Assembly: GCA_017448825.1 (NCBI GenBank)
Contig: JAFSKR010000047.1
Location: 1-47,157, forward strand
Source of the DNA: Bacteroidaceae bacterium
Lineage (GTDB): Bacteria; Bacteroidota; Bacteroidia; Bacteroidales; Bacteroidaceae
Direction: 5' to 3'
DNA: 47,157 nucleotides
Part shown: positions 2,224-30,407 of the stretch, one piece after another
Layout of the letters: each line of letters begins with the position of its first letter
Position numbering within the stretch: the stretch's first letter is position 1
The notes under the pieces: model-generated
Database searches by the model: none
The model's input: the letters and a program-made list of their open reading frames with translations, nothing else
Told to the model about the DNA's origin: nothing
Made by a program: the position numbers and the translations under genes

Positions 2224-5200
2224 ATGAAAGAGAATCGGAAAAGACAAGAAGGGCGGACGCACAGCGGGTTATGCCGTCTGCTTGGCAGCTTGGTTGTGCT
2301 CTTCGCTTGGCTGATGCCGCAAGGGGCATGGGCAGCCGACAGCGACCTGGATCAGGTGACTGTTGGTGACAAGAGTTTCTACGTGCTGCGCAACACCGAC
2401 GACTGGAACAAGTTCCGCGCGCTGGTGACTGCCGCAGGGGGTGGTTCCGATGTCAACGCCATCATGGACGGTGACATCCTCACGACGGACATCTGCGGCG
2501 ATGCCTCCCATCCCTACAACGGCATCTTCGACGGCAACGGACACTACCTGCAATTGGGCATCGCAAGGAACGCGGATTGCACAGCTCCGTTCGGAGCCGT
2601 CAGGAACGCCACCATCAAGAACTTGCACGTGACAGGTGCTACCCGTGGATCGAACCACAATTCTGGCCTGATAGGCCAGGTGGAAGACGGTTCCAATCGC
2701 AATGTGACGATTGAGCGGGTGTGGGTGTCCACCACCGTCACCTCCACCAGCAGGTTGGTCGGTGGCTTTATAGGACATGCCCACGATGGCAACCTTACCA
2801 TCAGCGACTGTCTCTTCGACGGCATACTGAATGCCAACGGTCACTCCCTCTCATACGGCGGTGCGATTGTCGGATGGGCACACACCGAAGGCAAGTGGGA
2901 GATGAACCGCGTCTATGAGAACGGTACCTACAACAACATCTCCCATCCTGGTTTCTCCAGTTGGAACATGGGTAATTCCTGGTGGGCTTCTGGCACCCTC
3001 TGCCTCTCAGCCCACGACTGGGGCGAGATGGCGAGCGGCTGCACTAACATCACCAAGCAGAACGACGTGGTGAGCAAGATGAACAAGGGACAGGGCGGCA
3101 CCTGGCAGTTGAAGGATGGAAAGGCTGTGCCCGTGATGGAAGAAACGAAAATAGAAGCCAGCTTCGAGACCTACGACATGATTCCCGGCACGGAGGAAGG
3201 CGAGGAAGGCATGGTGAAGATACCCTTCTCCTGCGACCAGGCGGTGAAGTGGATAGATGTCACCTACACCAACGAGAACGGCGAGAAGAAGACGCTCGAC
3301 CGCATCAACTACTCGAAGAACACCTACGCCGGCTTCATCTTGCTGCCCGCCACCGAGCAGCATAAGAACCTGACCTTGACGGTGAAGTTGCTCTTGGGCA
3401 GCACCACCGTGACCATCGACGGCAAGAAAGATGCCATGATGCACAACCCCCTCGACCTCACCGCCCAGCTGTTGCGCTTCAGCACCAACAAGGTGCTTGC
3501 CGATGCCGGAGCCGTGGAGCTGAAGTGGCAGGTGAAGAATCCTGGCTACGCCGACGTGATGAGCAGCGACAACTTCATGGTGATGCGTTCTCTCACGGGA
3601 AAGGACGAGGACATGGAGGCCGTCGGTTCGGTGGCGTTCGACGAGAAAACCACCTCTTATACCTATAAGGACGAGACGCTGACCAGTGCGCTGGAGGCAA
3701 AGCACATCAACGAGCTTACAGTCACCCCCAATGTGCGATACATCGTGGTGCGCGAGTCCGCCCAAGGCCTTTGGGGCCTCGCTGGCAATGCCGCCTCTGC
3801 TGCGGTGGGTTGCCAGCTGCCGATGCTCCACCTGTTGCGCATCAAGGACTGGCAGACGGCGTGGCAAGATGAGACCGCCAGGACGGTGAAGGTCACTTGG
3901 GAGTATGCCGACGAGGCTGGTGCCGTGTGGGACGACCGTGCCCAGATGAATATCGTGGTCACGGCAATCAACCGTGCTGGCTCCGCTGTCAGCACCAAGA
4001 CCATCACGCTGACCGCCGACGAGATAGCGGCATGCCAGAAGGTGATAGAGTTAGATCGCTCGTGCGTGGATTATGGAATCATCTTCGATGTGGAGCAGGG
4101 CACGTCGCCCATCCCCGTCGAGGCACCGTACTTCGAGATTCGTACGGCTGCGGACTGGACGGAGTTCGTCGCCAGGGTGAAAGCGGCAAAAGGTGGTTCT
4201 AACGTGAATGCCTCGCTGATGGCCGACCTCACGGTGAGCGAGATAGCTGCCTATTCAGGTAACGAACCTTACCGAGGCACCTTCGAGGGCAACGGCCACA
4301 CGTTGAACCTCAACATTTCGGATAATGCTATGAACACAGCCCTCTTCTCTCATGTGGCAACAGCTACGTTCCGCAACCTGAACCTGACGGGTACCGTCAG
4401 CTGCACCACGAAACACTTAGGAAGCTTGATTGGCTGTACGGAGAAAAATTCTACCGTCACGATAGAGAACTGCCGCTCATCGGTGAACCTCGTCAGCAGT
4501 GTGAACGACGACTCTGACGTGGGTGGATTCATCGGGCTTGTAGGGGAAGGCAGCACACAAACAACCTTCTTCAACTGTGTGTTCGACGGAAGTTTCGAGG
4601 GACCCAACAACCAGCGCAATGGTGGCTTCGTGGCTTGGGTAAGTGGTGGTGGCCCTATCACTATCCAGAACTGCCTCTTTGCACCTACTGCCATCAACAC
4701 AGGTTTTCGTGACTGTCAGACGTGGGTTCGTAGTTATAAGACAACCGTGACCATTACCAACAGTTACGCCACCAAGGAGTATAAGGAATCAGCAGATGTG
4801 CCAGAACACTATATGGTCATACGTGATGCCACCAATTGGGAAACCTTTAGATCTCTGGTAAGTACAGCCCAAACAGGGGTGAATGCCATCTTGATGGCAG
4901 ACATCACCGTGAACGAGGGCATGGTAGGCACACAAAGCAATCCGTACAGAGGAGTCTTTGACGGAAATGGGCACACGCTGACCGTGAACTATAGCAACGT
5001 TAATGCCCCCTTTGGCTACACGGCGGGAGCCACCTTCAAGAACTTGAACGTGGCGGGCAGCATCAGTTCGTCGAGCAAGAATGTGGCTGGTCTCGTGAGG
5101 TTTTGCTTGTCGGGCACCAACACCATCACGAACTGCCGTATGTCGGCCACCCTCGACTGTTCCATCAACGGAGATGCCACCAATGGCGGCTTTGTTGCCT

Positions 5201-8200
5201 ACACCGCTGGTGATGCCACGCTGAACATTACTGACTGCGTGTTCGATGGCAAGTTTACCGGCAGCAAATGTTACGCCAACGGCGGCTTTGTGGGCTTCAA
5301 TGACGGCTACACGAACCTGAAGAACTGCCTGTTCAATGGTACTTTCTCAACCCTAACGTCAGGCAACAGAACCTTCGCCCGTAGTCGTGACAACAACAAA
5401 ATCACGCTGACCAATGTTTACTACATCACCGACATGGATGACGGCAACCCCAAGCAAGGTACCAGCGCATCAGGCATCGACCAGCAGACGTTGGTGTCCA
5501 AACTCGGCACCAACTGGTACGTAAAGAATGGTAAGGCAGCGCCCATTTTACAGGTGAATCTGGTCAATGGCACCGTGGCAGGCAAGACTGCCGCCCAGAT
5601 TGTAGCCCTGTTGGGCAGCGGCTGGACGACTGTCAGCGGCGACCCCGTTCCCAAGATGGCCAACAACCAGCAGGTGGAAATTGCCAACTCGGCGAAGTTC
5701 CCCTTCAAGATTCACTCGGCAGACGATTGGAACACCTTCCGCAGGATGGTGGATGAAGCCAAAGGCACGAAGGACATCTATGCACAGCTGATGGCTGACA
5801 TCAGCATCACAGAACCTGTGGGCGTCAGCACTGGTCACTTCCGTGGTGGCTTCAACGGCAACGGACACACGCTAACAGTTAATATCAATAAGGGAGGCTG
5901 GAATAGCGCAGCCCCCTTCCAGTTTGTGACGGGCAACAGCACCATCTACAACCTGCACGTCACAGGTAACGTTACGGGACAAAAGTATGCCGCAGGTATT
6001 GTGGGCGAAGTGGACAATGGTGCCACCGTCAAGGTGTTGAACTGTCACTCGTCGGTATATCTGAACGTTCTCCGATATGGTGGCGGTATCGTAGGCAATT
6101 TCAATTCCGCCACACTCACCGTGAGCAACTGTCTGTTCGATGGCACCATCCATAACCGGAGTTACGTACTTTGGAATGGTGGTTCAGCAAGTTTTGCCGG
6201 TGCTTTTGTCGGATGGGGTGAGAACTCGAATCTTGTCGTCGAGAACTGTTTAGACAATGGAACATTCGAAGGTTTCAACTATGGTAGTAGGTACCTTTAC
6301 AGTGCCAACTGCAATGGCGCATGGACTGCTTGGGGTGGCACCAACAACTGGACAAACGATGACATCGTTGCTCGGGTCTGCAATAAGATAGGCACCATGA
6401 GCACCACCGCGCTGGTTGGAGCCTTAGGCAGTATGTGGAAGGTGGACGTAACTGGGAAAGCGCTGCCCTGTACCATCGGCAGCTTGATTGACGGCATGCC
6501 TACCTTCTACTACGAGAACCTGGGCCACATCGACCAGAACTCGCTGCAAGTGCGCACTCTCGCCACCTCTGCGGTGCTGACCTGGGCGAATGTGGACGAC
6601 GAGCCCGTGGATTACTACGAGGTGTGGCGCAAGGACAAGGAGGAAAGCGAGTTCAAGCTGCTCGTCACCCAACTTATCGACACACAATATGAAGACAAGA
6701 CGACCTCGCCTGTACACCAATATATATATAAGGTACGTGGCGTGACCAGTTGCGAGGGCCTCCACTACGACGAGACGAAGGAAGTGGATGGTATGTGTGA
6801 GCAGACGGGCACCGTGGAGGGTTACCTCCGCTTCCTCGACGGCACAGGCATCCCGGGCGAGAAAATCGTCGTGACGGTGGATGGCAAGGAACGCTCTGCC
6901 ATGACTGACGAGAGCGGCTTCTTCCGCTTCACGGGTCTGCCTTACAAGAACAAGGCGGAGACCAACTACAGTTTGACGGTGGTTGGCGTCACGGGCATCG
7001 ACCCTGTGGCCGTCACCTTGGGCACAGAACCGGGTGAGAACGTGGTGAAGAGCGTGGTGATAGAAGTGGGTTCGAGCGTCAAGATAGCCGGCTACGTGCA
7101 GTACGACGGCACGAGCATCCCCGTACAGGGTGCATCGTTCTTGGTCAACGGCCATGAGGTGCGCACAGCAGCCGGCAAGGTGGAGACCGACCACGAGGGC
7201 AAGTTCTCGTTCCGCATCCTGCCAGGCGATGCCACCATCCAGGCAGTGAAGGACGGACACACCTTCCTGCGCGACGGCTACTACCACGAGAACGACGACG
7301 ACCCCGATACGACGATTACCTACAACTTCAACACCGACAAGGCTGGACTCATCTTCTACGACCAGACGCGCGTGAAGCTCATCGGACGCATCGTGGGTGG
7401 CAAGACGCAGGGCGAGAAGCCACTGGGTCACGGCCTTTCGACCAACAACCTGGGCGACAGCCTGCGGATGGTGTTCACCTTGGAGGGCGACAACGCCTCC
7501 CGACTGGTGTTCGACATCCAAGACCGCAACCTGAAGGAGCGCGACGAGGTGTTTGAGCACACGACCGCGAATTCGCACGATAAGAAGTACACCTACCAGA
7601 CTTCGACGCACACCACGCTGAACCGCATGGTGGTGACCCCCGACGCACATACGGGCGAATATGAGGTGTGGCTGCCGCCTGTGAAGTGGAAGATACAGCA
7701 AATCACCGCCTCGGGCTATGCCACCCTGTTCCAGGACGGACAGACGAACGACGTGATAGACCTGACCGACTCGCTCACCCTGCACAAGGATGTGGTGAAG
7801 GGCACATGGAAGACCATCGGCTATGGCAACGAGGTGAAAGACCCTGTGGAGGAGTACCATGCCAAGTACTGCCGCATCTACCACTCGCCCGTCATCATCG
7901 ACTACCGTCAGCAGGGCTTCGAGGGTTTCGACTACTTCGGCGACCAATACTACAGCTACCAGAACGTGAGCGGCACCAAGGAGAAGCTGCCACTCGCCTA
8001 CGGTGTGAGGAAGCAGGACTGGCCTGTGGGCAAGCGCGACTCCTTGGAGACCCACTACACCTTTGGCTACCCTGTGTTCAACATCGACCGCAAGTACCCC
8101 ATCGACATCGCTGCAACAGAGCGATACTACTATAACAACAACACGAAGAGCGACACCATCGACGTGGTGCACTTGTCGGGCGGCGTAGTGACCATCCACA

Positions 8201-11200
8201 ACGGCATGGTCAGCGCAACCCATTGCGACACCCTCCAACTGGACGAAAAGGGACAGGGCACCTACATGATGGAGGCTGCACAGACCCCTTATCTGCTGAC
8301 GGGCGACGATGCCCTCAGCACGGTGAGCATAACCTTGGAGTTGGACGGCACGCACTATGAGGCAACACCGCTGAAGGCATACGTGCTGAACATCAAGCCG
8401 ACGGATGGCGCGAAGGACATCTTGAACTACTCGGCACCGCTGTTGGTGGACATCCTGCGCGACCCACCTGGCAGTTCGTCGAAAGCCACGCTGTCGAAAG
8501 GCTCCACGCTGAAGTACTCGTACACGATGGACTTGAAGTGGAGTGCTGGTGCTGCCATCAACGTCGGCATCGGAACAGGTGTGGACACCTTCACCGGCGT
8601 GGTAATGGCACCGATGGGTGCCGGTGCCGTGGCTGGCTTCAAGAATGGCGGCACCAACTACTTCGGAACAACCATCGACCTGGTGTGGTCGGGCAGCGGG
8701 CAACGCGCCTTCAACTACACCATGACGGCTGATGAGGATATCTCCACCAGTACAGACCCGACGATGGTGGGTGCCAACGGCGACCTGTACATCGGCGTGG
8801 TGCAGAACATCGTGGTGTCACCAGCTACTGCTATCCGTGCCATTCCCGATAACGTGTTCCAGCAGATGGGCGGCGCACTGAAGGCAGGGCGTATGGTGGA
8901 GATTGCACAAGGCAAGGACAACAACGGAAAGACACTGCACCTGGTGCGCGACGAGGTGGTGACCTGCGCACCTGAAATCACGTCGGACTTCGTACATTCG
9001 CAGCACTACATCGTCAACCAGCTCTTGCCCGAACTGGCTGAGCAGATTTACTCGATGATGTTCATCGGCACCGAGGCACAGGCGAAAGCCAAGGCGAATG
9101 CCGACCAGAAGCCCGTCTATCTGTCGTTGGTGGGCAAAGACCATGCCGACTTCGGCACCCGCTATAAGATGATTTCCCCCGACGGAGCTCCTGACAACAC
9201 CGTGGATGAAGTGAAGAAGTATCAGGAGGCGATGCACAAATGGGCGGAGATGATTGCCCAGAACGAGAAGGAGAAGCTGACGGCAACGGACTTGGTCAAG
9301 AACTTCGACGTGGACGGAGGCTCTTCCGTAAGTTACAGCGAGACCTTCACGAGCGACTACTCGGTGATGAACTCCTTTGTGAGTCCTATCACGTCTGGCA
9401 CGACGGGTTACTTCGAGGATGCCGGCGACGGTGCGGCAGGCTTTGCCGCCATTGTCGGCCCCATGGTGGCCAAGCTGCTGGCTGACGTGCTTGCCGGTGG
9501 GGCAGGCAAGACCACCAGCGAATACGACATTTCTGCCGACGACAAGGGTCTGAACCTCGATGTTGAAACCACGGGCTTCACGTTCAAGTTCAGCCTTGTG
9601 CCCGCCATGACGTTCAGCATCACGCCCGAGGACACGGAGTCGAAGTCGTACAGCCGTACGGAGAGCTTCACCATCGACATGAACAAGAAGAACCACCTGG
9701 ACTTCGACGTTTATCGCGTGAAGACCTCTGTCGATGCCGTGAGCAACGGCAGTATGGGCGATTTGGACGTGTTCTACAACAAGAATTTCTACGACTTGGT
9801 GGACTACAACAGGAACCGCATGAAGGACGACGTGGATGTGAGCAAGTTCCGCTATTCGCGCAGCTTCGTCTATCGCACCCGTGGCGGCGCGACGTGCCGT
9901 CCGTGGGAGGGCGAGCGTGCGACGCTGTTCTATGAGCCGGGCAAGGTGATTGACGAGCGCACGAAGAAGATAGAGAACCCCCAAATCAAGATGGACAAGC
10001 AGAGCGTGAGCGGCGTGCCCTACGGCGAACCTGCCCGCTTCAAACTCTACCTGACCAACGAGAGCGAACAGCCCGAGGCGGTGTATTACTACTTCGACCT
10101 CTACCAGGTGGATATGTCGAACCCCAAGGGCGCGAAACTGATGATTGACGGAATGCCGCTCACCGGCACAGAGCGCACCGTCGAGATACATCCGGGCGTG
10201 GTGACGGAGAAGACCTTGGAGGTGTATGCCGGCGAGGACTTCGACTATGAGGGCCTGACCATCGGACTCATCTCACAGGACGACGTGAAAACCTATGCAG
10301 AAGTGTCATTCGACGTCCACTTCCTGCAGACGGCGGGCGGCATCGCCATCTCGTCGCCGGGCGACAAGTGGATTATGAACTGTGACGCACCCACCGATGG
10401 CAGCAAGGGCTGGTATCTGCCTGTCGTCATCAGTGGCTTCGACAAGAACCAGCACAACTTCGACCACATCGAGTTCCAATATAAGGAGACGACCCGTGGC
10501 GATGACTACTGGACGAACCTCTGCGGCTACTATGCCGACTCGACCCTCTATCGTGCTGCTTCCGGCACGAAGGCGATGATTCCTGAGAACGGCAACATCA
10601 CCGCCCGCTTCTTCGGCGAAGGCACCGTGATGGAGAAGGCATACGACCTGCGTGCCGTGCTGTTCTGCAGGAACGGAAACGCCTTCCTCACCAACGAATC
10701 GATGGTGCTGAGCGGCGTGAAGGACACGCGCCGTCCACAACTGTTCGGCACACCAGAGCCGAAGACAGGCGTGTTGGGTGTTGGCGACAACATCATCTTC
10801 AACTTCTCGGAGGACATCGAGTATAACTACCTGCAAGCCACCACCAACTTCGAAGTGGTGGGCGAGACCAACGAGACCGCTGTGCAGGAAGCACCCTCGC
10901 TGCTGTTTGGCGGCAACGGCTACGCACAGACGGAGGCGCGCCGCAACTTCAGCGACAAGAGCGTGACCATCGAAGTGATGATCAAGCCCGACGAGGTGGA
11001 GAAAAATATGCCTATCTTCTCGCATGGCAGCGACGGTAAGCACCTACAGCTGTGGCTCACTCAGGACAAGCACCTGAAGGCAATGGTGGACAACGTGGAG
11101 CTGTTGAGCAACACCACCCTGACGGGAACGGGATTCCAGCGCGTGGCACTGGTGCTCGACAACGAGGCGAAGCAACTTATGCTCTACGCCAATGAGCAGA

Positions 11201-14200
11201 TAGGGCGCAAGGATAACGTGACTTATAGCGGCTACGGGCCTCTGACCTTCGGTGCCACCAGTGAGGATGCCTCCGGCAAGCGTACCTACTATCAGGGACG
11301 TATGTTGCAAGCCCGTGTGTGGAACCGCGCACTCGACCTCGCCTCGCTCAACCGCTACGGAAACAAGCAGCTGACAGGCTATGAACTGGGACTGGTGGAC
11401 TACTACCCCATGAACGAGGGCCGTGGCGATTATGCCACCGACCTGGCACAGGGCGCTCACCTCACGCTCAACGGTGCTTCGTGGGCACTGCCGGAAGGTA
11501 TGTCGCTGAAGCTCGAGGGCAACACAGGAACTGAGACGGCAGACAAGAATATCGCCATCAGTTCTGAAAAGGACTGGAACACCTTCTGTAGCATGGTGGC
11601 AGCAGCGAAGGGAAAGTATAACGTGAATGCCTCGCTGTTAGCCGACATCACTATCACCGAGCCTGTAGGTGTCAGCACAGGCTACTTCCGTGGAACGTTC
11701 GACGGCAACGGGCACACGCTGACAGCCAATCTCAATAAGAACGAAGTCGGTATGGCTCCCATCCATTATGTTACTGGCACCACTACCATCCGCAACTTGA
11801 ATGTTGACGGCACCATCAAGGGCAGCAATATGTCATGTGGTATTGCCGGTGTTATGGACAACAGTGCCAACCTCTTGGTGGAGAATTGCCACGTGTCGGC
11901 ACACATCATCACGACCAACAACTGGGCAGGCGGCATCATCGGTCATGCACACAACAGTCGTACAACGGTACGTAACTGTCTGTTCGACGGCACACTGACC
12001 AACAATGCCAGCGGTACCTCTTACGCTGGAGCGTTCTTCTGCTGGGGCGACGGAGGCACCTTCGTTACGGAGCACTGCTTGGAAAAAGGTACATACGAGA
12101 ACTTCATGCACGTTGGAGCCAATTACCGTTCTACCAATAATAGAAATGCGTTTGGCGGTAAGACCAACTATACCTATCAGGACTGGGGCGAAATCAGCAA
12201 AGTGGGCACGATGACTTCCGCTGAACTGGCAGCCGCCTTAGGCACTCAATGGATGGTGAACTCAGCCGATCAGGTGGTGCCCATCGTCAGCATCACGAAC
12301 ACTATGGCTGGCACTCAAAAGGGCTTGCAGCTGAGGAGTGACCTCTTCCAGCGTGACGACGAACAGGACTACACGCTGATGTTCTGGTTCAAGACTGCCA
12401 AGTCGGACGGTACGCTGATGGCGAATGGTGCTGGAAAAGCCAACGATGAGGGAGCGAAGAACAAATTCTTCATCGGCTTTGAGAACGACACCTTGAGGTA
12501 TCGCACCAACGGCAACGAGTACGCCCTTGGCGACAACCTCTGCGACGATGCTTGGCACCACTACGCCATGAGCGTGAACCGTATGCGCAACGTGGCAAGC
12601 ATCTACATCGACAATGTGCCGAAGGTGCAGTTCACCACCGACTCGCTGGGTGGTATGCTCGGCACACGCTTCTTCTTGGGCAACACGGTATGGCAGATAG
12701 CTGGCAACCCCGTCGTGTTTGAAGAGAATGCATTGACAGGCCACATCGACGGCTTGGCCCTCTTCGAGCAGGCACTGCCTCTCACGCTCATCAAGCGCTA
12801 TACCAACAAGGCACCTGGCGGTTCGGAAAAGGGACTCATCGCCTACGTGGACTTCGACCATCAGGAGCGACAGAAGAATGGTGAACTGACCTTGCAGCCC
12901 TACGTGCTGAACAAGAAGGTGAAGTATGACAACGACGGCAATGCCACCGGCAAGGCCGACAGCGTGTTCGTCAACCCTGTAGCTGATGTCTTGGCACAGG
13001 TGGACATCAACGTCGGTGCGCCGATGCAGGCCTACGAGGAGCTGCGCAACCTGAACTTCAGCTATGTGGGTCGCGACAACCAGATACTGGTGAACATCGA
13101 TGAACAGGACAGCCGCGTGAACAAGCAAAACGTTTACGTGACCCTGTACGACATCCCTGACAAGAACGGTAACTTCATGAAGTCGCCTGCCACAGAGTGC
13201 TTCTTCGTGGATCGCAACCCACTGGCATGGGGTGAAAAGCGCATCACGACCACGATGATGGCAGGTTATGACCGTGAGCTGTTCTTGCAAATTGTCAACA
13301 AGGGCGGAAAGGCGCATACCTACACCATCGAAAACTTGCCACGCTGGATGACTGCCGACAAGCTCAGCAATGTGGTGGATGCGCAGAGTACGGACAATGT
13401 CAACATCACAATCAGCAAGGATATCAATGTGGGCACCTACGACCAAATCATCTATCTGACGGATGAGGACGGCCTGTCGGAGCCACTGCCGATAGAGCTG
13501 ACGGTGGAAGGCGAAGAACCCTATTGGGAGGTGGATCAGAACCTGAAGCGCTACTCGATGAACATCGTGGCACAAGTGTTCGTGGGCAACACCCTCGTCA
13601 CTGACGCGCACGACAAGGTGGCAGCCTTCGACGCAGCGGGCCGCTGCATGGGTGTCAACAACATCAAGTATGATGCCAACACCGGGCGCAGTATGCTCTA
13701 CATGACTATTTACGACAGCACCACGGTGGCAAGCACCCTGACGTTCCAGCTGTGGCATTATGCTACGGGCGCGACGATGATGCTGAGGACGGAGCCGGAA
13801 GCCATCAGTTTTGCTGAGCAGACGACCGTGGGCACTGTCTCTCACCCCGTTCAGATGTACGCGACGGAACGCTACAAGCAGACGATAGACTTGGCAGAGG
13901 GCTGGAATTGGATTTCGTTCTATGTCTATAACCAGGCCCTTGAAGACTTGACAACCATTCTCAGCAGGTACCCGTGGCAGGAGGGCGACATCCTGACCGA
14001 AGACTCGCGAGACCTGACACTGGTCTATCGCAACGGACTGTGGATGAGCAACACGGAAGTAGATATCGACAACATAGATATGTCGCAGGAGTATAGCTAC
14101 AGAATCAAGGTGCAGGAAGACCAGCACGTCGAAATCTGGGGCGAAGCCTTCAAGGATCCCGAAGACCGCACTATCCACCTGAAACAGGGATGGAACAGCA

Positions 14201-14895
14201 TCGGTTACACCCCACTGGTGAACCTGCCTGTGGGAACGGCACTGACTGAGTACTTCGACGAGGCTACCGACGGCGATGTCATCAAGAATCAACATGAGTT
14301 TGCCATGTTCGAGAGCGATGGCAAGGGCGGCGGCGAATGGCTCGGCACATTAGAGTACATGAAGCCAGGTGAGGGCTATATGCTCCATCGCCAGAGCGCC
14401 ACGCCGACCTCGTTCCGCTATCCGTACTACGAACCTGGAACGACCTTCATCGGCACATCAGGCGCACCACGCCGCATCGGTTCACCGTATGCCGCGACCA
14501 TGAACATCGTGGCTCAGGCCGTCGGTGTCGAGGTGCAGCCGGGCGACCGCCTCGCGGCATACGCCAGCGGAGAACTGGTGGGTGAGGCCGTTGTCAGCGA
14601 CCAGACCGCTGACTACGGGGAACTCTTCTTCCTGAACATCGAGGGCGACGTGGAAGCTCCACTGTCGTTCACCATCGAGCGCGACGGAGAAATCATCGCC
14701 ACCACTCGTCAGACGATAACCTACAAGGTGCACGCCATCAGCGGCAGCCCCGCAGAGCCTACCAGCATCAACTTCGTCAGCTATGACCCTGCCAACGACG
14801 GACTGTGGTACAGCGTGAGCGGCATCAAGCTGGGCAAGCGTCCTGCCACTCCTGGTGTCTATATCTTCAACGGAAGAAAGGTTGTGATTAAGTAA
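2224..14895 (+). CDS. Giant secreted multidomain repeat protein, possible adhesin
   Basis: A 4223-aa protein with a signal peptide of about 38 residues (hydrophobic LGSLVVLFAWLMPQGAWA). Five related modules with the pattern W-x-x-F...VNA-x-LMADIT...F-D-G-N-G-H-T-L, each followed by GLUG-like beta-repeat sequence (GGFIG, NCLFDGT), begin near residues 50, 636, 862, 1160 and 3110. Between them lie a fibronectin-III-like stretch (about 1436-1515), two carboxypeptidase-regulatory-like domains (about 1525-1700), a long unassigned core (about 1700-2880) and two LamG/concanavalin-like domains (about 2888-3100 and 3363-3580). Near the C-terminus are two GWNWIS/GWNSIG segments and a short tail, GVYIFNGRKVVIK, resembling type IX secretion tails. 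No catalytic motif was found. A surface adhesin or glycan-binding scaffold is the likely role, by inference. A lipoprotein gene follows after 13 nt, probably in the same operon. Confidence 0.85.
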   Translation: MKENRKRQEGRTHSGLCRLLGSLVVLFAWLMPQGAWAADSDLDQVTVGDKSFYVLRNTDDWNKFRALVTAAGGGSDVNAIMDGDILTTDICGDASHPYNGIFDGNGHYLQLGIARNADCTAPFGAVRNATIKNLHVTGATRGSNHNSGLIGQVEDGSNRNVTIERVWVSTTVTSTSRLVGGFIGHAHDGNLTISDCLFDGILNANGHSLSYGGAIVGWAHTEGKWEMNRVYENGTYNNISHPGFSSWNMGNSWWASGTLCLSAHDWGEMASGCTNITKQNDVVSKMNKGQGGTWQLKDGKAVPVMEETKIEASFETYDMIPGTEEGEEGMVKIPFSCDQAVKWIDVTYTNENGEKKTLDRINYSKNTYAGFILLPATEQHKNLTLTVKLLLGSTTVTIDGKKDAMMHNPLDLTAQLLRFSTNKVLADAGAVELKWQVKNPGYADVMSSDNFMVMRSLTGKDEDMEAVGSVAFDEKTTSYTYKDETLTSALEAKHINELTVTPNVRYIVVRESAQGLWGLAGNAASAAVGCQLPMLHLLRIKDWQTAWQDETARTVKVTWEYADEAGAVWDDRAQMNIVVTAINRAGSAVSTKTITLTADEIAACQKVIELDRSCVDYGIIFDVEQGTSPIPVEAPYFEIRTAADWTEFVARVKAAKGGSNVNASLMADLTVSEIAAYSGNEPYRGTFEGNGHTLNLNISDNAMNTALFSHVATATFRNLNLTGTVSCTTKHLGSLIGCTEKNSTVTIENCRSSVNLVSSVNDDSDVGGFIGLVGEGSTQTTFFNCVFDGSFEGPNNQRNGGFVAWVSGGGPITIQNCLFAPTAINTGFRDCQTWVRSYKTTVTITNSYATKEYKESADVPEHYMVIRDATNWETFRSLVSTAQTGVNAILMADITVNEGMVGTQSNPYRGVFDGNGHTLTVNYSNVNAPFGYTAGATFKNLNVAGSISSSSKNVAGLVRFCLSGTNTITNCRMSATLDCSINGDATNGGFVAYTAGDATLNITDCVFDGKFTGSKCYANGGFVGFNDGYTNLKNCLFNGTFSTLTSGNRTFARSRDNNKITLTNVYYITDMDDGNPKQGTSASGIDQQTLVSKLGTNWYVKNGKAAPILQVNLVNGTVAGKTAAQIVALLGSGWTTVSGDPVPKMANNQQVEIANSAKFPFKIHSADDWNTFRRMVDEAKGTKDIYAQLMADISITEPVGVSTGHFRGGFNGNGHTLTVNINKGGWNSAAPFQFVTGNSTIYNLHVTGNVTGQKYAAGIVGEVDNGATVKVLNCHSSVYLNVLRYGGGIVGNFNSATLTVSNCLFDGTIHNRSYVLWNGGSASFAGAFVGWGENSNLVVENCLDNGTFEGFNYGSRYLYSANCNGAWTAWGGTNNWTNDDIVARVCNKIGTMSTTALVGALGSMWKVDVTGKALPCTIGSLIDGMPTFYYENLGHIDQNSLQVRTLATSAVLTWANVDDEPVDYYEVWRKDKEESEFKLLVTQLIDTQYEDKTTSPVHQYIYKVRGVTSCEGLHYDETKEVDGMCEQTGTVEGYLRFLDGTGIPGEKIVVTVDGKERSAMTDESGFFRFTGLPYKNKAETNYSLTVVGVTGIDPVAVTLGTEPGENVVKSVVIEVGSSVKIAGYVQYDGTSIPVQGASFLVNGHEVRTAAGKVETDHEGKFSFRILPGDATIQAVKDGHTFLRDGYYHENDDDPDTTITYNFNTDKAGLIFYDQTRVKLIGRIVGGKTQGEKPLGHGLSTNNLGDSLRMVFTLEGDNASRLVFDIQDRNLKERDEVFEHTTANSHDKKYTYQTSTHTTLNRMVVTPDAHTGEYEVWLPPVKWKIQQITASGYATLFQDGQTNDVIDLTDSLTLHKDVVKGTWKTIGYGNEVKDPVEEYHAKYCRIYHSPVIIDYRQQGFEGFDYFGDQYYSYQNVSGTKEKLPLAYGVRKQDWPVGKRDSLETHYTFGYPVFNIDRKYPIDIAATERYYYNNNTKSDTIDVVHLSGGVVTIHNGMVSATHCDTLQLDEKGQGTYMMEAAQTPYLLTGDDALSTVSITLELDGTHYEATPLKAYVLNIKPTDGAKDILNYSAPLLVDILRDPPGSSSKATLSKGSTLKYSYTMDLKWSAGAAINVGIGTGVDTFTGVVMAPMGAGAVAGFKNGGTNYFGTTIDLVWSGSGQRAFNYTMTADEDISTSTDPTMVGANGDLYIGVVQNIVVSPATAIRAIPDNVFQQMGGALKAGRMVEIAQGKDNNGKTLHLVRDEVVTCAPEITSDFVHSQHYIVNQLLPELAEQIYSMMFIGTEAQAKAKANADQKPVYLSLVGKDHADFGTRYKMISPDGAPDNTVDEVKKYQEAMHKWAEMIAQNEKEKLTATDLVKNFDVDGGSSVSYSETFTSDYSVMNSFVSPITSGTTGYFEDAGDGAAGFAAIVGPMVAKLLADVLAGGAGKTTSEYDISADDKGLNLDVETTGFTFKFSLVPAMTFSITPEDTESKSYSRTESFTIDMNKKNHLDFDVYRVKTSVDAVSNGSMGDLDVFYNKNFYDLVDYNRNRMKDDVDVSKFRYSRSFVYRTRGGATCRPWEGERATLFYEPGKVIDERTKKIENPQIKMDKQSVSGVPYGEPARFKLYLTNESEQPEAVYYYFDLYQVDMSNPKGAKLMIDGMPLTGTERTVEIHPGVVTEKTLEVYAGEDFDYEGLTIGLISQDDVKTYAEVSFDVHFLQTAGGIAISSPGDKWIMNCDAPTDGSKGWYLPVVISGFDKNQHNFDHIEFQYKETTRGDDYWTNLCGYYADSTLYRAASGTKAMIPENGNITARFFGEGTVMEKAYDLRAVLFCRNGNAFLTNESMVLSGVKDTRRPQLFGTPEPKTGVLGVGDNIIFNFSEDIEYNYLQATTNFEVVGETNETAVQEAPSLLFGGNGYAQTEARRNFSDKSVTIEVMIKPDEVEKNMPIFSHGSDGKHLQLWLTQDKHLKAMVDNVELLSNTTLTGTGFQRVALVLDNEAKQLMLYANEQIGRKDNVTYSGYGPLTFGATSEDASGKRTYYQGRMLQARVWNRALDLASLNRYGNKQLTGYELGLVDYYPMNEGRGDYATDLAQGAHLTLNGASWALPEGMSLKLEGNTGTETADKNIAISSEKDWNTFCSMVAAAKGKYNVNASLLADITITEPVGVSTGYFRGTFDGNGHTLTANLNKNEVGMAPIHYVTGTTTIRNLNVDGTIKGSNMSCGIAGVMDNSANLLVENCHVSAHIITTNNWAGGIIGHAHNSRTTVRNCLFDGTLTNNASGTSYAGAFFCWGDGGTFVTEHCLEKGTYENFMHVGANYRSTNNRNAFGGKTNYTYQDWGEISKVGTMTSAELAAALGTQWMVNSADQVVPIVSITNTMAGTQKGLQLRSDLFQRDDEQDYTLMFWFKTAKSDGTLMANGAGKANDEGAKNKFFIGFENDTLRYRTNGNEYALGDNLCDDAWHHYAMSVNRMRNVASIYIDNVPKVQFTTDSLGGMLGTRFFLGNTVWQIAGNPVVFEENALTGHIDGLALFEQALPLTLIKRYTNKAPGGSEKGLIAYVDFDHQERQKNGELTLQPYVLNKKVKYDNDGNATGKADSVFVNPVADVLAQVDINVGAPMQAYEELRNLNFSYVGRDNQILVNIDEQDSRVNKQNVYVTLYDIPDKNGNFMKSPATECFFVDRNPLAWGEKRITTTMMAGYDRELFLQIVNKGGKAHTYTIENLPRWMTADKLSNVVDAQSTDNVNITISKDINVGTYDQIIYLTDEDGLSEPLPIELTVEGEEPYWEVDQNLKRYSMNIVAQVFVGNTLVTDAHDKVAAFDAAGRCMGVNNIKYDANTGRSMLYMTIYDSTTVASTLTFQLWHYATGATMMLRTEPEAISFAEQTTVGTVSHPVQMYATERYKQTIDLAEGWNWISFYVYNQALEDLTTILSRYPWQEGDILTEDSRDLTLVYRNGLWMSNTEVDIDNIDMSQEYSYRIKVQEDQHVEIWGEAFKDPEDRTIHLKQGWNSIGYTPLVNLPVGTALTEYFDEATDGDVIKNQHEFAMFESDGKGGGEWLGTLEYMKPGEGYMLHRQSATPTSFRYPYYEPGTTFIGTSGAPRRIGSPYAATMNIVAQAVGVEVQPGDRLAAYASGELVGEAVVSDQTADYGELFFLNIEGDVEAPLSFTIERDGEIIATTRQTITYKVHAISGSPAEPTSINFVSYDPANDGLWYSVSGIKLGKRPATPGVYIFNGRKVVIK

Positions 14896-25321: not shown

Positions 25322-26578
25322 ATGGAGAAACTATTCTTTTTTGATGAGACATTCTACTGGGGGCGCTCTGGAAAGAGGGCCACGGTGATAGAGGCGGAAT
25401 GTGAGTTGATGCAAAACGTGCGCCCCGATGAGCTGCGGGCGGCAGTGCTGAACGCTCTGAGGGTACACCGCAATTTCAGAGCACGCCCAGCCATCGTGGG
25501 GCGGCGATTCCTCGTGGATACCTCCGAGGCAGAGCAGGTCACGGTGGTAAGGGACGGCCAGCCGCGATCCCTTGGCACCAAAGAGACCGAGGGTCTCATG
25601 CTCTATGTGTCCTACGGCGAGAGGTGCTTCACGCTTCATGTGTTCCACGGGCTTGGCGACATGCGCTCTATCTGCGCCTTCCTCCATACAGTCCTGAGAT
25701 TCTATTGCCACGTGGATGATGACAACCTGCCTGCTGCTGATAGCATGGACACTTTCCCATGCCACGAGCACATCCTGCAGGAATGCACACCCGGAGAACC
25801 CGAGGGCAAGTTCATCCCGCAGGAGCACGACATCTTCCATCTGCCGGAAGAGCTGTTCAGCAGCACGACCACGCGGCAGCGCATCATCGATATAGACTTG
25901 CCACTCAAGCCGATTCTTGCCTTTGCCCACGAGAACGGCAGCTCCGTGGTGCCAGCCCTGAACGCCATCATAGGCCGAGTCATCCGCCAGTGCTACGACG
26001 TGGGACAGAAGGAGATTGTATGCTATGTTCCCATTGACCTGCGCAGGGTGTTCCATTTCGAGTCCGGTGGCAATGGCGCAATTCCCTTCTCACTCCCCTA
26101 CACAGCAGAGACCGACCATCTGCCGGTAGGCGAAAGGGCAAGGCGGCTGCGCATGGAGTTGAACGTGCAGATTAGACTGGAAAACCTATACGCAACGGTG
26201 GCCCGTCAGCGGTCTGACTTCGACCCTGTTTTCTCCTCGCAGTTGCCCGTGCAACAGACATCGTCTTGGGCCGTCAAGAACGGAAGGAAGATAGATTCAG
26301 CCATCAACACCTACGGCATATCCTACGCAGGACATCTCGACTTCGGTGATGCCATAGCCCAGCAGGTGCAGACCGTGGGTGTCAGTGCCGGCTCCTACTC
26401 CTATCCGCTGTGGATTGTGGCCTGCGAGTATAAGGGCATCATCCGCATGAGGCTCGTGCAGTCGTTTGAGAGCGACAGGCTGGCCACTGCTATCCATCAG
26501 GAACTCATCGCACTCTTCCCTGGCACAACCTACACAGACCGGGGATGGCATGATTTCGACTCGTTCCCCCTTGAGTAG
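25322..26578 (+). CDS. Condensation/alcohol-acyltransferase-like protein
   Basis: A 418-aa cytoplasmic protein with the chloramphenicol-acetyltransferase-like fold of condensation domains and alcohol acetyltransferases. The active-site motif HxxxDG appears as H109-GLG-D113-M, keeping the catalytic His and Asp but not the Gly. The second structural motif (DFGWG type) appears as D340-FGD. No signal peptide, carrier protein or synthetase gene is nearby, so a free-standing acyl transfer to a small alcohol or amine is more likely than peptide synthesis. Substrate unknown. It stands alone between AT-rich intergenic stretches. Confidence 0.65.
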   Translation: MEKLFFFDETFYWGRSGKRATVIEAECELMQNVRPDELRAAVLNALRVHRNFRARPAIVGRRFLVDTSEAEQVTVVRDGQPRSLGTKETEGLMLYVSYGERCFTLHVFHGLGDMRSICAFLHTVLRFYCHVDDDNLPAADSMDTFPCHEHILQECTPGEPEGKFIPQEHDIFHLPEELFSSTTTRQRIIDIDLPLKPILAFAHENGSSVVPALNAIIGRVIRQCYDVGQKEIVCYVPIDLRRVFHFESGGNGAIPFSLPYTAETDHLPVGERARRLRMELNVQIRLENLYATVARQRSDFDPVFSSQLPVQQTSSWAVKNGRKIDSAINTYGISYAGHLDFGDAIAQQVQTVGVSAGSYSYPLWIVACEYKGIIRMRLVQSFESDRLATAIHQELIALFPGTTYTDRGWHDFDSFPLE

Positions 26579-26629
26579 CGTTCCGCGTAAAGGCAATACA
26601 CAAGTATAAATGTATAAACAAAAACATTG

Positions 26630-29425
26630 ATGAAAAAGGTGATGAATAGGGTGATGGCCGCCACCCTCATAGGATGCTGTACGGTGTTGACAAGCTGCAC
26701 CTCTATAGCCGAGAGTTTTACCAACAACCTAATAGCCGAAGACCGTTACAGGATGATTCTTGATGGCTTGCAGGTGACGCTCCTCATTACGTTCTGCGCC
26801 ACTGTCTTAGGCACGCTCTTAGGCGGACTGGTGTGCTGGATGCGTATGAGCCGTCGGGCATGGCTACAGCAAGTGGCCAAGGTGTACATCGACCTGATGC
26901 GCGGTACGCCCGTGCTGGTGCTGCTCATGCTAATGTACTATGTGGTGATGGCTCCGATAGATGCAACGGGCATGGTGGTGGCCATCGTCACCTTCGCCAT
27001 GAACACGGCGGCCTACATCAGCGAGATGTTGCGTACCACCATTCAGGGAATCGACCGCGGACAGACAGAGGCAGGGTTAGCCTTAGGCTTTACACAGCGG
27101 CAGACATTCTTCAAGATTGTGTTGCCACAGGTGGTCAAGGCGGTGATGCCCGTCTATCAAGGTGAGGTGGTGAGCCTGCTGAAAGGCACAAGCATCGTAG
27201 GCTATATCGCCGTGGCTGACATGACGAGAGCTTCCGACCTGATACGCTCGCGAACGTTCGATGCCTTCTTCCCCCTCATTGTGACGGCCATCATCTATTT
27301 CCTCATGGCATGGCTTATCGGACTACTGCTGAAGTCGTTAGTGCAGCGGCAACGCATGAAGGCGTTCGTAGCGGCAGCACTGCTGGCTATCGGGGGAACG
27401 GTGTGTTATGTGCCCACGCTGGCAAGTGACACTTCTTCCACCGCCGAGACAGATGGTTCGTCGAGCGTTCCTTCCGTCTTCAAGGCACTCTCAGGCAAGC
27501 GCATCGGTGTTGTTATCGGAAGCATACAGGACATGGCCTTCACCAAGTTGGCACCCGATGCCGACATGATGCGACTGGCCAACACCACCGATATGCTGGC
27601 TTCACTGGAGAACGGTAAGGTGGACGTGATTGGTGAAGAGAATCTTTCGGTGACCTTCAACAAGGAGATTGCAGCGAAGGTGGACACGGTGAATGCCGGT
27701 CTGCCACCGATGCCCATAGGAGCTTGCTTTCGCTTGGACAACACCCAACTGAAGCAGGACTTCGACAGCTTTTTGGCCGATATCCGCCACGACGGCACCT
27801 ACCAGCAAATTTACGACCGATGGAGAAAAGCCGACAACCCTTCGTCGGTGACTGTACCTCAGCAACACGGCACGGGACAGACACTACGCATAGCCATCTA
27901 TCCGGCAATGCCTCCCTTCAGCTTTATCAGTTCAGGGAAGCCCTCAGGCTTAGAGATAGACATACTGACGGAATGGGCCAACCGACGTAATAGGAAGCTG
28001 GAATACCTCACCATGGACTTCGCCTCGCAGATTCCAGCCGTGCAGACAGACAAAGTGGATATGGCCATGGGATCCATCAGCATCACCGAGGAACGACAGA
28101 AGCAGGTGCTCTTCTCAGATGGCTATATAGAGTCGTATATCATGCTCCTCACACGGAAAGGAGAAGTGGGGATTCTTACAGAGCAGACTCAGAAGACCCA
28201 CCTCCAACCCCTCCCTGTGAGGGAAGGAAGTAATTATCCTTGGCCGTGGGTAATAGGGGTTGTCATTATAATAGGTGGCGGCGTGTGGCTTATCCTCCGC
28301 CGCAAACGCCGCACTATGTTACTATCTACTCCCTTCCCTCACAGGGAGGGGACAGGGGAGGGTCTGCTGGGTCTTCAAATCTCCCACTTGAAGAAAAGAT
28401 ATGGCAGCCTCGACGTATTGCTCGACATCAATGCCGACATACATCCTGGTGAAGTTATCTCCATCATCGGTCCTTCGGGCACGGGTAAGAGCACTCTCCT
28501 GAGATGCTTGAACCTCTTGGAGCACCCCACAGGCGGTAGTATCGTTGTCAATGGAGAGGACATCCTCACCAAGGGCTATCCCGTTAACAAACTCCGCCAG
28601 AAAATGGGCATGGTGTTTCAGTCGTTCAACCTTTTCGAACATAAGACCGTGTTAGAGAACGTCATCTTTGCCCCCTGTCAGTTACGCCATGTGCAACCAG
28701 AAGAAGCGCGCAAGCAAGGTTTGACACTCCTGCGCAAAGTAGGGCTGGTCGAGAAAGCCGATGTATATCCTTCGAGCCTCTCAGGTGGACAGAAACAGCG
28801 TGTGGCCATCGCTCGCGCCTTGGCTATGAAGCCAGAGGTCATCCTTTTCGATGAGCCTACGTCGGCTCTCGACCCGACGATGGTGGGCGAGGTGCTCAGT
28901 GTCATCCGCCAGCTCGCCAACGAAGGTATGACCATGCTCATCGTCACCCACGAGATGAAATTCGCTCGTGACGTGAGTACCCGCCTCTTCTTCATGTACG
29001 ACGGCTATATCCATGAGGATGGTTCGCCCCAACAGATATTCGAGGCACCAGTCCACAGTGCTACCAAAGCCTTCATACAGCGCATCCGCAAGGAGGTGTT
29101 CGAGATTGACGACCCCGACTTCGACTTCCTCGGTATGTACTCCGCCATCAATGCCTTCTGTTACAAGTACAACATCACCCAGAAACAGGAGATGGCAGAA
29201 CAGTTGACGGACAAGATGCTCAACGACGTGATGTCCCAGCATCGCCCCATCACTGTTCGTATCACCCATAGCGAACTGTCTGGTGTAACAGCCTTGGACT
29301 TCATGGTGGAGAAGATGGAAACCACCCCACTCACCGATGTCCAGCGCAGCGAACTCTCAGGACTGTGCCGACAGGTAGTGGAAGAACCCACCAAGCGAGG
29401 CTTCCGTGTGAAACTGATACTATGA
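26630..29425 (+). CDS. Single-chain amino-acid ABC transporter (permease + binding lobes + ATPase)
   Basis: A 931-aa fusion. It begins with a lipoprotein-type leader (VMAATLIGC..LTSCTS), then a HisM/GlnP permease (about 41-241; LMRGTPVLVLLML, TIQGIDRGQTEAGLALGF), a further TM (MKAFVAAALLAIGG), a binding-protein C-lobe-like half (about 287-402; GKRIGVVIGSIQ, DGTYQQIYDRW), an N-lobe-like half (about 418-513; LRIAIYPAMPPFSF, GSISITEERQ), a TM with RRKRR after it (about 538-560) and a GlnQ-type ATPase (about 581-823; GPSGTGKST at 614, LSGGQKQRVA, VILFDEPTSALD). The last 108 residues are unassigned. The binding-protein halves are in reverse order compared with the family. An ATG at 26630 is preferred over TTG at 26627. 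Two arms of an inverted repeat lie inside the gene. Confidence 0.85.
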   Translation: MKKVMNRVMAATLIGCCTVLTSCTSIAESFTNNLIAEDRYRMILDGLQVTLLITFCATVLGTLLGGLVCWMRMSRRAWLQQVAKVYIDLMRGTPVLVLLMLMYYVVMAPIDATGMVVAIVTFAMNTAAYISEMLRTTIQGIDRGQTEAGLALGFTQRQTFFKIVLPQVVKAVMPVYQGEVVSLLKGTSIVGYIAVADMTRASDLIRSRTFDAFFPLIVTAIIYFLMAWLIGLLLKSLVQRQRMKAFVAAALLAIGGTVCYVPTLASDTSSTAETDGSSSVPSVFKALSGKRIGVVIGSIQDMAFTKLAPDADMMRLANTTDMLASLENGKVDVIGEENLSVTFNKEIAAKVDTVNAGLPPMPIGACFRLDNTQLKQDFDSFLADIRHDGTYQQIYDRWRKADNPSSVTVPQQHGTGQTLRIAIYPAMPPFSFISSGKPSGLEIDILTEWANRRNRKLEYLTMDFASQIPAVQTDKVDMAMGSISITEERQKQVLFSDGYIESYIMLLTRKGEVGILTEQTQKTHLQPLPVREGSNYPWPWVIGVVIIIGGGVWLILRRKRRTMLLSTPFPHREGTGEGLLGLQISHLKKRYGSLDVLLDINADIHPGEVISIIGPSGTGKSTLLRCLNLLEHPTGGSIVVNGEDILTKGYPVNKLRQKMGMVFQSFNLFEHKTVLENVIFAPCQLRHVQPEEARKQGLTLLRKVGLVEKADVYPSSLSGGQKQRVAIARALAMKPEVILFDEPTSALDPTMVGEVLSVIRQLANEGMTMLIVTHEMKFARDVSTRLFFMYDGYIHEDGSPQQIFEAPVHSATKAFIQRIRKEVFEIDDPDFDFLGMYSAINAFCYKYNITQKQEMAEQLTDKMLNDVMSQHRPITVRITHSELSGVTALDFMVEKMETTPLTDVQRSELSGLCRQVVEEPTKRGFRVKLIL
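28208..28351. repeat. Inverted repeat inside the ABC transporter gene
   Basis: Arms at 28208-28232 and 28327-28351 are 25 nt each and complementary at 24 positions. They flank the TM-coding segment between binding lobe and ATPase. Translated, they give the low-complexity peptides PLPVREGSN and TPFPHREGTGEG. The arms resemble the C-rich/G-rich palindromes found between genes at 39015-39120. Confidence 0.8.
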
Positions 29426-29555
29426 CGGTGCCGAGACTGATAGGAAAGGAGAAAAATTATAATTCAAATGTATAATTGACAATGTACAATTTAGGCTAAT
29501 GTGATGCACACACACCGAATGGCAAATTGTAAATCGTAAAATTGTAAATCAGAAT

Positions 29556-30407
29556 ATGGAAAAGAATTACAAACTGATTGACCTGAACGACTATGTTCAG
29601 ACGGGCGAGGGCGGAACATCCCTCACCTACACGCACAAGACACGCAAAGCGCTTGCCAAGCTCTTCAATCCTGGACGCGAGGCCGAGCAGGCAGAGCGTG
29701 AGTTCTTGACGGCCAGAGCCGTGTTTGAGATGGGTGTACCCACGCCCGAACCCTACCAGCTGATTACCGACGGTCAGCGTCAGGGCGTAGAGTACGAATT
29801 GATTAAGGACAAGCGCTCGTTTACGCGCATCGTCTCCCAGGAACCAGAAAGGCTGGAGGAAATCTCATTGTCCTTCGCCCGTATGGCTCGCGAACTGCAT
29901 GCCACTAAGGCTGACACCTTGCGTTTCACGTCAATCAAAGAGACGCTCCGCCGCTTCTATCTGGAGAAAGGTGAAAGGGTGACGGAAGAATACAAGCAGC
30001 GTGCCCTGAACTTCTTAGACAAGGCTCCCGATGCCGAGACCAGCCTGCACGGTGACCTCCATATAGGCAATGTCATCACCGACGGCCAGCGCAATCTCTG
30101 GATTGACTTGGGGCAGTTCAGCTATGGCGTACCAGAGTGGGATTTGGGCTGGATGTGGACCATCTGCCACCGTATGGACGGGCATCGGAGTGACTTTATA
30201 CTCCATCTCACCCCCGAGACCCTCACTGCCCATTGGGACATCTTCCTCCCAGCCTATTTGGGAACGAACGACAAGGTGGCGATTGGTCAGTTCACGAAGC
30301 GACTCATGGCGTTCTATGCCGTCAAGCTGCCCTTTATGTACGACCTGCAAGCACAGGAACGGCTTCCCGAAGCCGCGCTACAGCAGCTGCCGCAGGTGAT
30401 AGAATAA
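29556..30407 (+). CDS. APH-like phosphotransferase family protein, second paralogue
   Basis: A 283-aa paralogue of the protein at 16372, with the same start (LNDYVQTGEGGTSLTY), catalytic loop H165-GDLHIG-N and metal Asp D184 in LWIDLGQFSYG. After the Asp the paralogues differ (GD versus GQ). As for the first copy, it fits the TIGR02172-type branch of PF01636 with unknown substrate. It is preceded by about 130 nt of AT-rich sequence with short AAATTGTA repeats and followed by a decayed leader fragment, then the TonB receptor gene. Confidence 0.8.
   Translation: MEKNYKLIDLNDYVQTGEGGTSLTYTHKTRKALAKLFNPGREAEQAEREFLTARAVFEMGVPTPEPYQLITDGQRQGVEYELIKDKRSFTRIVSQEPERLEEISLSFARMARELHATKADTLRFTSIKETLRRFYLEKGERVTEEYKQRALNFLDKAPDAETSLHGDLHIGNVITDGQRNLWIDLGQFSYGVPEWDLGWMWTICHRMDGHRSDFILHLTPETLTAHWDIFLPAYLGTNDKVAIGQFTKRLMAFYAVKLPFMYDLQAQERLPEAALQQLPQVIE

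Follow-up and report, generated by a model that had tools for sequence, protein, structure and literature searches.

How does an amino-acid importer come to carry its substrate-binding domain (SBD) with the two lobes in the wrong order? The question is raised by a gene at 26630..29425 (+ strand) of contig JAFSKR010000047.1 from a gut bacterium of the Bacteroidaceae (assembly GCA_017448825.1), analyzed here over its whole length of 47,157 nucleotides, which we call the window. A preliminary description had proposed that this gene fuses the permease, binding protein and ATPase of an ATP-binding cassette (ABC) importer, with the lobes of the binding protein reversed; its coordinates and domain order were correct. 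We confirmed that the C-lobe segment precedes the N-lobe segment in the SBD of the 931-amino-acid chain, and we consider it very likely that the product is a PAAT-type (HisMQ/GlnP) amino-acid ABC importer, made as one chain and acting as a homodimer, with a circularly permuted cluster-F SBD tethered to the membrane at both ends.

The reading frame is uninterrupted from 26630 (ATG), with an in-frame TTG one codon upstream at 26627, to 29425, and encodes 931 amino acids plus the stop. In order, the chain consists of an LTSC leader, a PAAT-type permease, a hydrophobic segment, the C-lobe, the N-lobe, a further hydrophobic segment and a GlnQ-like ATPase, followed by some 110 residues of C-terminal domain. 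Pfam places BPD_transp_1 at residues 60-242, ABC_tran at residues 599-745 and SBP_bac_3 in two stretches, the better of which covers residues 419-536 (profile 1-98 of 132); together with the uninterrupted frame these matches bear out the fusion of all three parts. The permease domain (26702..27349, residues 25-240) has an EAA-type loop, E147-G153, in which E147, A148, G149 and G153 are invariant in the 71 rows of our alignment A3. The ATPase (28373..29089, residues 582-820) carries Walker A (GPSGTGKST, 614-622), LSGGQ (717-721), Walker B up to D741-E742 and the switch histidine H774, and the residues of all four are invariant in the same 71 rows. Its best NCBIfam match is GlnQ (301 of 379 bits, under the curated cut-off). 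A BPD_transp_1 permease with an EAA loop and an ABC ATPase with Walker A, signature, Walker B and H-loop are both features of a PAAT-type (type I) importer.

The crossed order of the binding domain was seen with a profile, with a solved structure and with an independent model. In a genome-wide search with SBP_bac_3, positions 27467-27826 matched profile 10-130 at 30.7 bits (cut-off 26.4) and positions 27884-28174 matched profile 1-97 at 89 bits. Against AncQR (4zv1), a solved canonical substrate-binding protein (SBP), residues 276-398 aligned to chain positions 105-230 and residues 413-515 to positions 6-109, and a stand-alone relative at locus L207 was likewise crossed (query 26-147 to 107-232, query 165-258 to 10-103). 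The cut in the L207 alignment falls between AncQR residues 103 and 107, which we take to be the first hinge crossing of the chain. A model built independently from five normal-order relatives gave a crossed match in 144/144 permuted rows, which were chosen beforehand as C-N and include two genes present twice, and a single colinear stretch in 5/5 leave-one-out controls. The C-lobe part with its tail helices thus occupies 27455..27829 (residues 276-400) and the N-lobe part 27866..28174 (residues 413-515). Between them, the AncQR alignment and the SBD model place a new joint of the old C-terminus to the old N-terminus at 27830..27865 (residues 401-412); the joint measures about 14 residues in the window chain and about 17 in the L207 relative. 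Homology to cluster F (SBP_bac_3) extends over both lobes, in an order crossed relative to the cluster-F chain (N-lobe, C-lobe, tail into the N-lobe), and the C-N unit looks like a natural circular permutation of this fold. The reversal proposed in the preliminary description is therefore upheld by all of these alignments. Its statement that there is no other copy of either half holds for the chain, by Pfam, and fails for the genome, which has one other SBP_bac_3 protein, separate and in normal order.

Do the two halves form one domain? AlphaFold2, given 144 sequences, modeled residues 274-520 as a single domain with a predicted local distance difference test (pLDDT) score of 95.0 and a predicted template modeling (pTM) score of 0.88, and this monomer prediction, which had been suggested as a check, places both halves in one fold. 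The crossed alignment and the one-domain model speak against two complete domains, one per half. Arg489, Glu488, Trp398, Gly297 and Pro429 are invariant in 144/144 rows, and residue 337 is Glu or Asp in 74/76 window-type rows. We take Arg489, in the N-lobe part, to be the equivalent of the arginine that holds the ligand carboxylate, and residue 337 presumably matches the Asp that holds the ligand amino group, so that the pair of conserved residues typical of cluster F is present. Ratios of nonsynonymous to synonymous substitution rates (dN/dS) against seven relatives, chosen by us from the 70 in alignment A3, were 0.12-0.26 for the C part (7/7 measurable) and 0.05-0.16 for the N part (6/7 measurable); the linker together with the last membrane segment gave 0.27-0.70 (6/7 measurable). 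Judged from these ratios, both halves of the SBD are under purifying selection.

The same order recurs in relatives. Genome contigs were scanned with a permease profile; 451 relatives were confirmed, and the best 80, which carry no information on order in the other 371, were read for domain order. Permease, C, N and ATPase follow one another in a single frame at 73/80 loci, which encode 73 distinct chains, and the isolates Prevotella ruminicola KHT3 (L060), Xylanibacter ruminicola D31d (L101) and Prevotella sp. tf2-5 (L053) are among them. N came before C in the permease chain at 0/80 loci, and the survey of homologues thus agrees with the order in the window. The seven other loci have permease-C-N (three), permease-C (two) or permease only (two), and a contig end is reached in six of them (L046, L047, L049, L062, L067 and L108); the N part of L046 lies in another frame. 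At L076 (5962-8695) one frame encodes permease-C-N and another, immediately downstream, encodes the ATPase, either a true split gene or a sequencing slip. At L042 (6340-8133), in the same-genus genome G013, the start of the frame is not permease-like, the C part and the greater part of the permease are absent, and the frame continues as N part, membrane segment and ATPase.

Besides the one-chain proteins, the permuted unit occurs in other arrangements. Permease searches, accepting E values up to 1e-20, found matches in 21/393 genomes of the order and 51/296 of the phylum, the window's genome being counted in both; 32 of the 51 were strong and 19 weak. We read 40 further loci: the 25 places of the order search that were still unread, and 15 of the phylum search. 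They contain 14 stand-alone C-N open reading frames (ORFs) of 258-282 amino acids, stop to stop; C-N is fused once ahead of the permease in 12 ORFs, C-N-C-N-permease is found in 11 (one cut by a contig end), and eight have three permuted SBDs ahead of one permease, C-N-C-N-C-N-permease (L182, L185, L188, L195, L196, L206, L211 and L213). The triple arrays would mean six SBDs per dimeric transporter, against four in GlnPQ. The other ORFs comprise one permease-C-N-ATPase, six with permease only, five fragments or oddities and five of normal N-C-permease order; all five normal-order chains came from weak permease matches, with five of the 19 weak-match genomes read. Because stand-alone C-N ORFs and single, double and triple C-N permease fusions all occur, C-N can be regarded as an evolutionary unit. 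In a further genome, G033, C-N-C-N-permease-ATPase forms one chain. Loci L199 (5789-6634) and L203 (5708-6550) belong to a more distant group, with a separate permease, an ATPase and a weakly matching stand-alone C-N protein, the ligand of which may differ. Six of six tested genomes of family f136 carry the FMO antenna protein (PF02327), found in 0/14 control genomes and 0/4 other genomes. FMO is a marker of green sulfur bacteria, and we therefore take these six genomes to belong to that group. As far as these comparisons go, the reversal extends beyond the window chain to a family of circularly permuted SBPs, with members in Bacteroidales and in green sulfur bacteria, and special to the Prevotella group is the placing of the SBD between permease and ATPase.

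Trees of the permease and of the SBD bear on the history of the family. In the permease tree (55 rows), the five rows of normal N-C-permease order are separated from the other 50 at 100/100. Within the tree, the Prevotella rows with the one-chain order form a group (85/97) that adjoins the C-N-C-N-permease-ATPase chain of G033 (93/84). In the SBD tree, 9/12 stand-alone units were placed with the first copies of arrays, and therefore C-N moves as a unit. A possible source is visible in the tandem SBD1-SBD2 of GlnPQ (6h30), the best of three stretches of which aligned L207 query 17-253 to chain 92-324, colinear across C1-N2. The C1-N2 middle of the tandem has the permuted order, so that duplication and loss of N1 and C2 would give a permuted domain. 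The probable ancestor of the permuted domain is thus a GlnP-like N1-C1-N2-C2 tandem that lost N1 and C2; later, in Prevotella, the permease would have come to precede the SBD. The leader before the permease and the signal-peptide-like segment after it would fit a history in which SBDs that once followed a lipoprotein leader were lost and a secreted SBD was captured in the place between permease and ATPase.

How might the one-chain importer work? The working unit of a type I importer contains the permease domain and the ATPase domain twice each. Since each chain has one of each, two chains would be needed, and we infer a homodimer; the preliminary description's complete importer in one chain is thus right in that all three parts are present, while one chain would be half of the working unit. 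The chain begins with a lipoprotein-like leader (26630..26701, residues 1-24, LTSC with Cys23), which would put the N-terminus outside. A lipobox-type motif lies no more than 45 residues before the permease in 26/73 relatives and was not found in the other 47, and because of these 47 the leader appears not to be essential. Permeases of this family presumably have five membrane segments and an external N-terminus. The hydrophobic segment after the permease (27365..27421, residues 246-264), detected by hydropathy, modeled as a helix over 242-267 and resembling a retained signal peptide in the linker listing, would carry the chain out and place the SBD in the periplasm; the segment before the ATPase (28241..28297, residues 538-556, from hydropathy and a modeled helix over 540-558) would return it, so that ATPase and C-terminal domain lie inside. 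The basic stretches KSLVQRQRMK and RRKRR fall on the predicted inner side, and on hydropathy and charge the topology first suggested, with leader out, lobes outside and ATPase inside, fits the sequence. Because the cut in the SBD lies at the first hinge crossing and the old ends are now joined, both membrane tethers would leave at the hinge. An amino acid would be bound between the lobes, with Arg489 for the carboxylate and acidic residue 337 for the amino group; the SBD would then close and dock on the permease dimer, and ATP would drive import. A full-chain model again shows the SBD, ATPase and C-terminal domain, and both SBD tethers (264-278 and 519-540) have low confidence in it, for which reason a plain leash holding the SBD near the permease seems likelier than mechanical coupling.

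Several observations weigh against this picture. The importer case is built from predictions and comparisons. The full-chain model is poor in its membrane part (pTM 0.42), and a hydropathy scan of the permease shows four clear peaks, not five. Foldseek template modeling (TM) scores by query length reached no more than 0.53 in the best 50 of 1103 rows; Foldseek keeps chain order, so a TM near 0.5 was not used as proof of fold. Residue 337 is Asp in only 42/68 of the other, non-window-type rows, and synonymous sites are close to saturation in the dN/dS comparison. The normal-order outgroup consists of five loci only, and both tree supports for the one-chain group are below the starred level. Moreover, the gene is patchy in its genus. 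Of 36 same-genus genomes searched, nearly all of them with 14 candidates scored, G027 alone had the full chain, at 69% identity to the window chain, and this is the same gene as L087 and so not independent of the 80 loci; G013 has its broken relative, and G030 and G033 have other orders.

Three other explanations were weighed against the permuted one-chain importer. Perhaps no chain holds a permuted domain at all: the C part of either chain could pair by domain swapping with the N part of its partner, and N1 and C2 could form a normal-order pair in arrays. The C-N-C-N arrays do hold an N-C pair in their middle, two chains adjoin in any type I importer, and a loosely domain-swapped dimer is reported, in the summary of that work, for the arginine-binding protein TmArgBP (PMC4022495). 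Stand-alone C-N proteins (14 ORFs) and single C-N permease fusions (12 ORFs) are nevertheless common, both halves are modeled with high confidence in the monomer, where about 14 residues separate the aligned parts, and the grouping of most stand-alone units with first array copies has C-N traveling as a unit; on this evidence we consider a domain swap unlikely.

It is a good deal less probable still that the SBD is a decaying remnant and that the protein either receives its substrate from another SBP or does not import at all. Such decay would accord with the weak Pfam match of the C part (30.7 bits), the broken copy in G013 and the separate normal-order SBP of the genome, but both halves show purifying selection and invariant binding residues, and a search of the genome, which is about 86% complete, matched no second permease of this kind. 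The source is a draft of 75 contigs, where parts can be misplaced by assembly or by a frameshift; the chance that this produced the order is negligible, as an artefact of either kind is ruled out by 73 distinct chains at 73/80 loci, including the three named isolates, with the same order in one frame.

The C-terminal domain (29090..29422, residues 821-931) accompanies the permuted systems. Among loci L179-L213, 81-132 residues follow the ATPase in 31/31 ATPase ORFs beside permuted systems, compared with only 2-6 residues in four ATPases beside normal-order permeases; a 40-residue tail occurs in one case, a low-scoring other ATPase. G030 is an exception, with a permuted C-N-permease beside a 248-amino-acid ATPase lacking such a domain. 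HATPase_c_2 (PF13581, RsbW-like) matches 8/12 aligned C-terminal domains with a best E value of 1.7e-5. The window's own domain gave no match to PF13581, and a comparison with the PDB gave nothing better than E 0.2. The C-terminal domain may regulate transport.

The linker before the ATPase has features of its own. A 48-nucleotide inverted repeat (28185-28374; left arm 28185..28232, right arm 28327..28374) encloses the last membrane segment, its arms being 83% complementary with 94 nucleotides between them; the arms look palindromic themselves, and the frame runs through both. It is not a high-copy genomic repeat: the core occurs only three times at up to three mismatches, two of them here. 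A strong arm pair, defined by a score of at least 14 where shuffles (20 for each row shown) reach at most 11, is present in the same linker of 9/73 relatives, eight with similar letters. As only these nine have it, the repeat is not needed for the protein, and palindromes seem to recur in this linker. The chain also looks mosaic. L055, L060 and L101 are near the window in permease and SBD (dN 0.06-0.19) and far from it in ATPase (dN 0.31-0.33) and C-terminal domain (1.1-1.3), and L043, L053 and L088 are near it in ATPase (dN 0.07-0.09) and C-terminal domain (0.13-0.16); such a pattern would result from exchange at the linker that precedes the ATPase. Promoter and terminator scans of 26400-29600 gave one site each, compared with 2.9 and 2.1 in shuffles, and Rfam at gathering scores found only a tRNA in the window. 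Elsewhere in the window, positions 2224-14895 form a single open frame of 4223 codons.

Taken further, the data suggest an unrecognized class of permuted Type II (cluster-F) SBPs that descended from a GlnP-like tandem by loss of the outer halves, multiplied, in Bacteroidales and green sulfur bacteria, as stand-alone proteins and as arrays with at most three units to a permease, and in Prevotella came to form the periplasmic loop of a one-chain importer, with two tethers at the hinge as in ionotropic glutamate receptors and with lobe closure perhaps felt directly by permease and ATPase; taken as a whole, we see this proposal as evenly balanced between right and wrong. Circular permutation of binding proteins is used in sensor design, and a natural family of the amino-acid class would allow direct tests of how such permutations arise, as the normal-order tandem survives in GlnPQ and the permuted unit in relatives. 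The family would also allow tests of the role of the tether attachment point in an ABC importer, and a one-chain importer would be a simple subject for structure work, with relevance to nutrient uptake in rumen Prevotella.

Among the matches listed in our literature search, by title and abstract opening and with subscription literature mostly outside its scope, there was no description of a natural permuted amino-acid binder or of a one-chain importer of this order. The closest natural permutation found in print is Tp0684, a Type I sugar binder, which, going by its crystal description, is presumably not fused to a permease or ATPase. Tp0684 (MglB-2) of Treponema pallidum is a natural case of circular permutation in a binding protein and has kept its ligand binding; its authors suggest membrane tethering as a possible reason and propose the label 'Type Ic / Cluster Bc' (PMC4990184). 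Like the window SBD it is a naturally permuted bacterial binding protein; unlike it, it is a Type I / Cluster B protein of another fold class and ligand. The matches listed for the window SBD are SBP_bac_3-type amino-acid SBPs, which set it apart from Cluster B without a direct comparison of the two.

Other known systems share parts of the architecture. In OpuA of Lactococcus lactis a binding domain also follows the permease in the same chain; OpuA is a glycine-betaine importer with a normal-order binding domain, its chain ends outside and its ATPase is separate. The ligand-binding domain of ionotropic glutamate receptors has the SBP fold in the order S1-membrane-S2 and gates a channel. Its membrane attachment, at the end of S1 and start of S2, lies about where the C-N family is cut, and the window differs in having S2-S1 flanked by the membrane segments of an importer. 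In GlnPQ the SBDs precede the permease, and a separate chain provides the ATPase. The window chain, permease-SBD-ATPase, departs from that order, and relatives of it have the GlnPQ-like order, but with permuted SBDs. GlnPQ of L. lactis, with its tandem SBD1-SBD2 fused to the permease (PMC8025302), is the closest known system. Like the window protein it is an amino-acid importer with cluster-F SBDs covalently tied to the permease, and over C1-N2 its sequence aligns colinearly with the permuted domain, whereas each of its own SBDs, in the alignment of the crystal sequence, is in normal N-C order.

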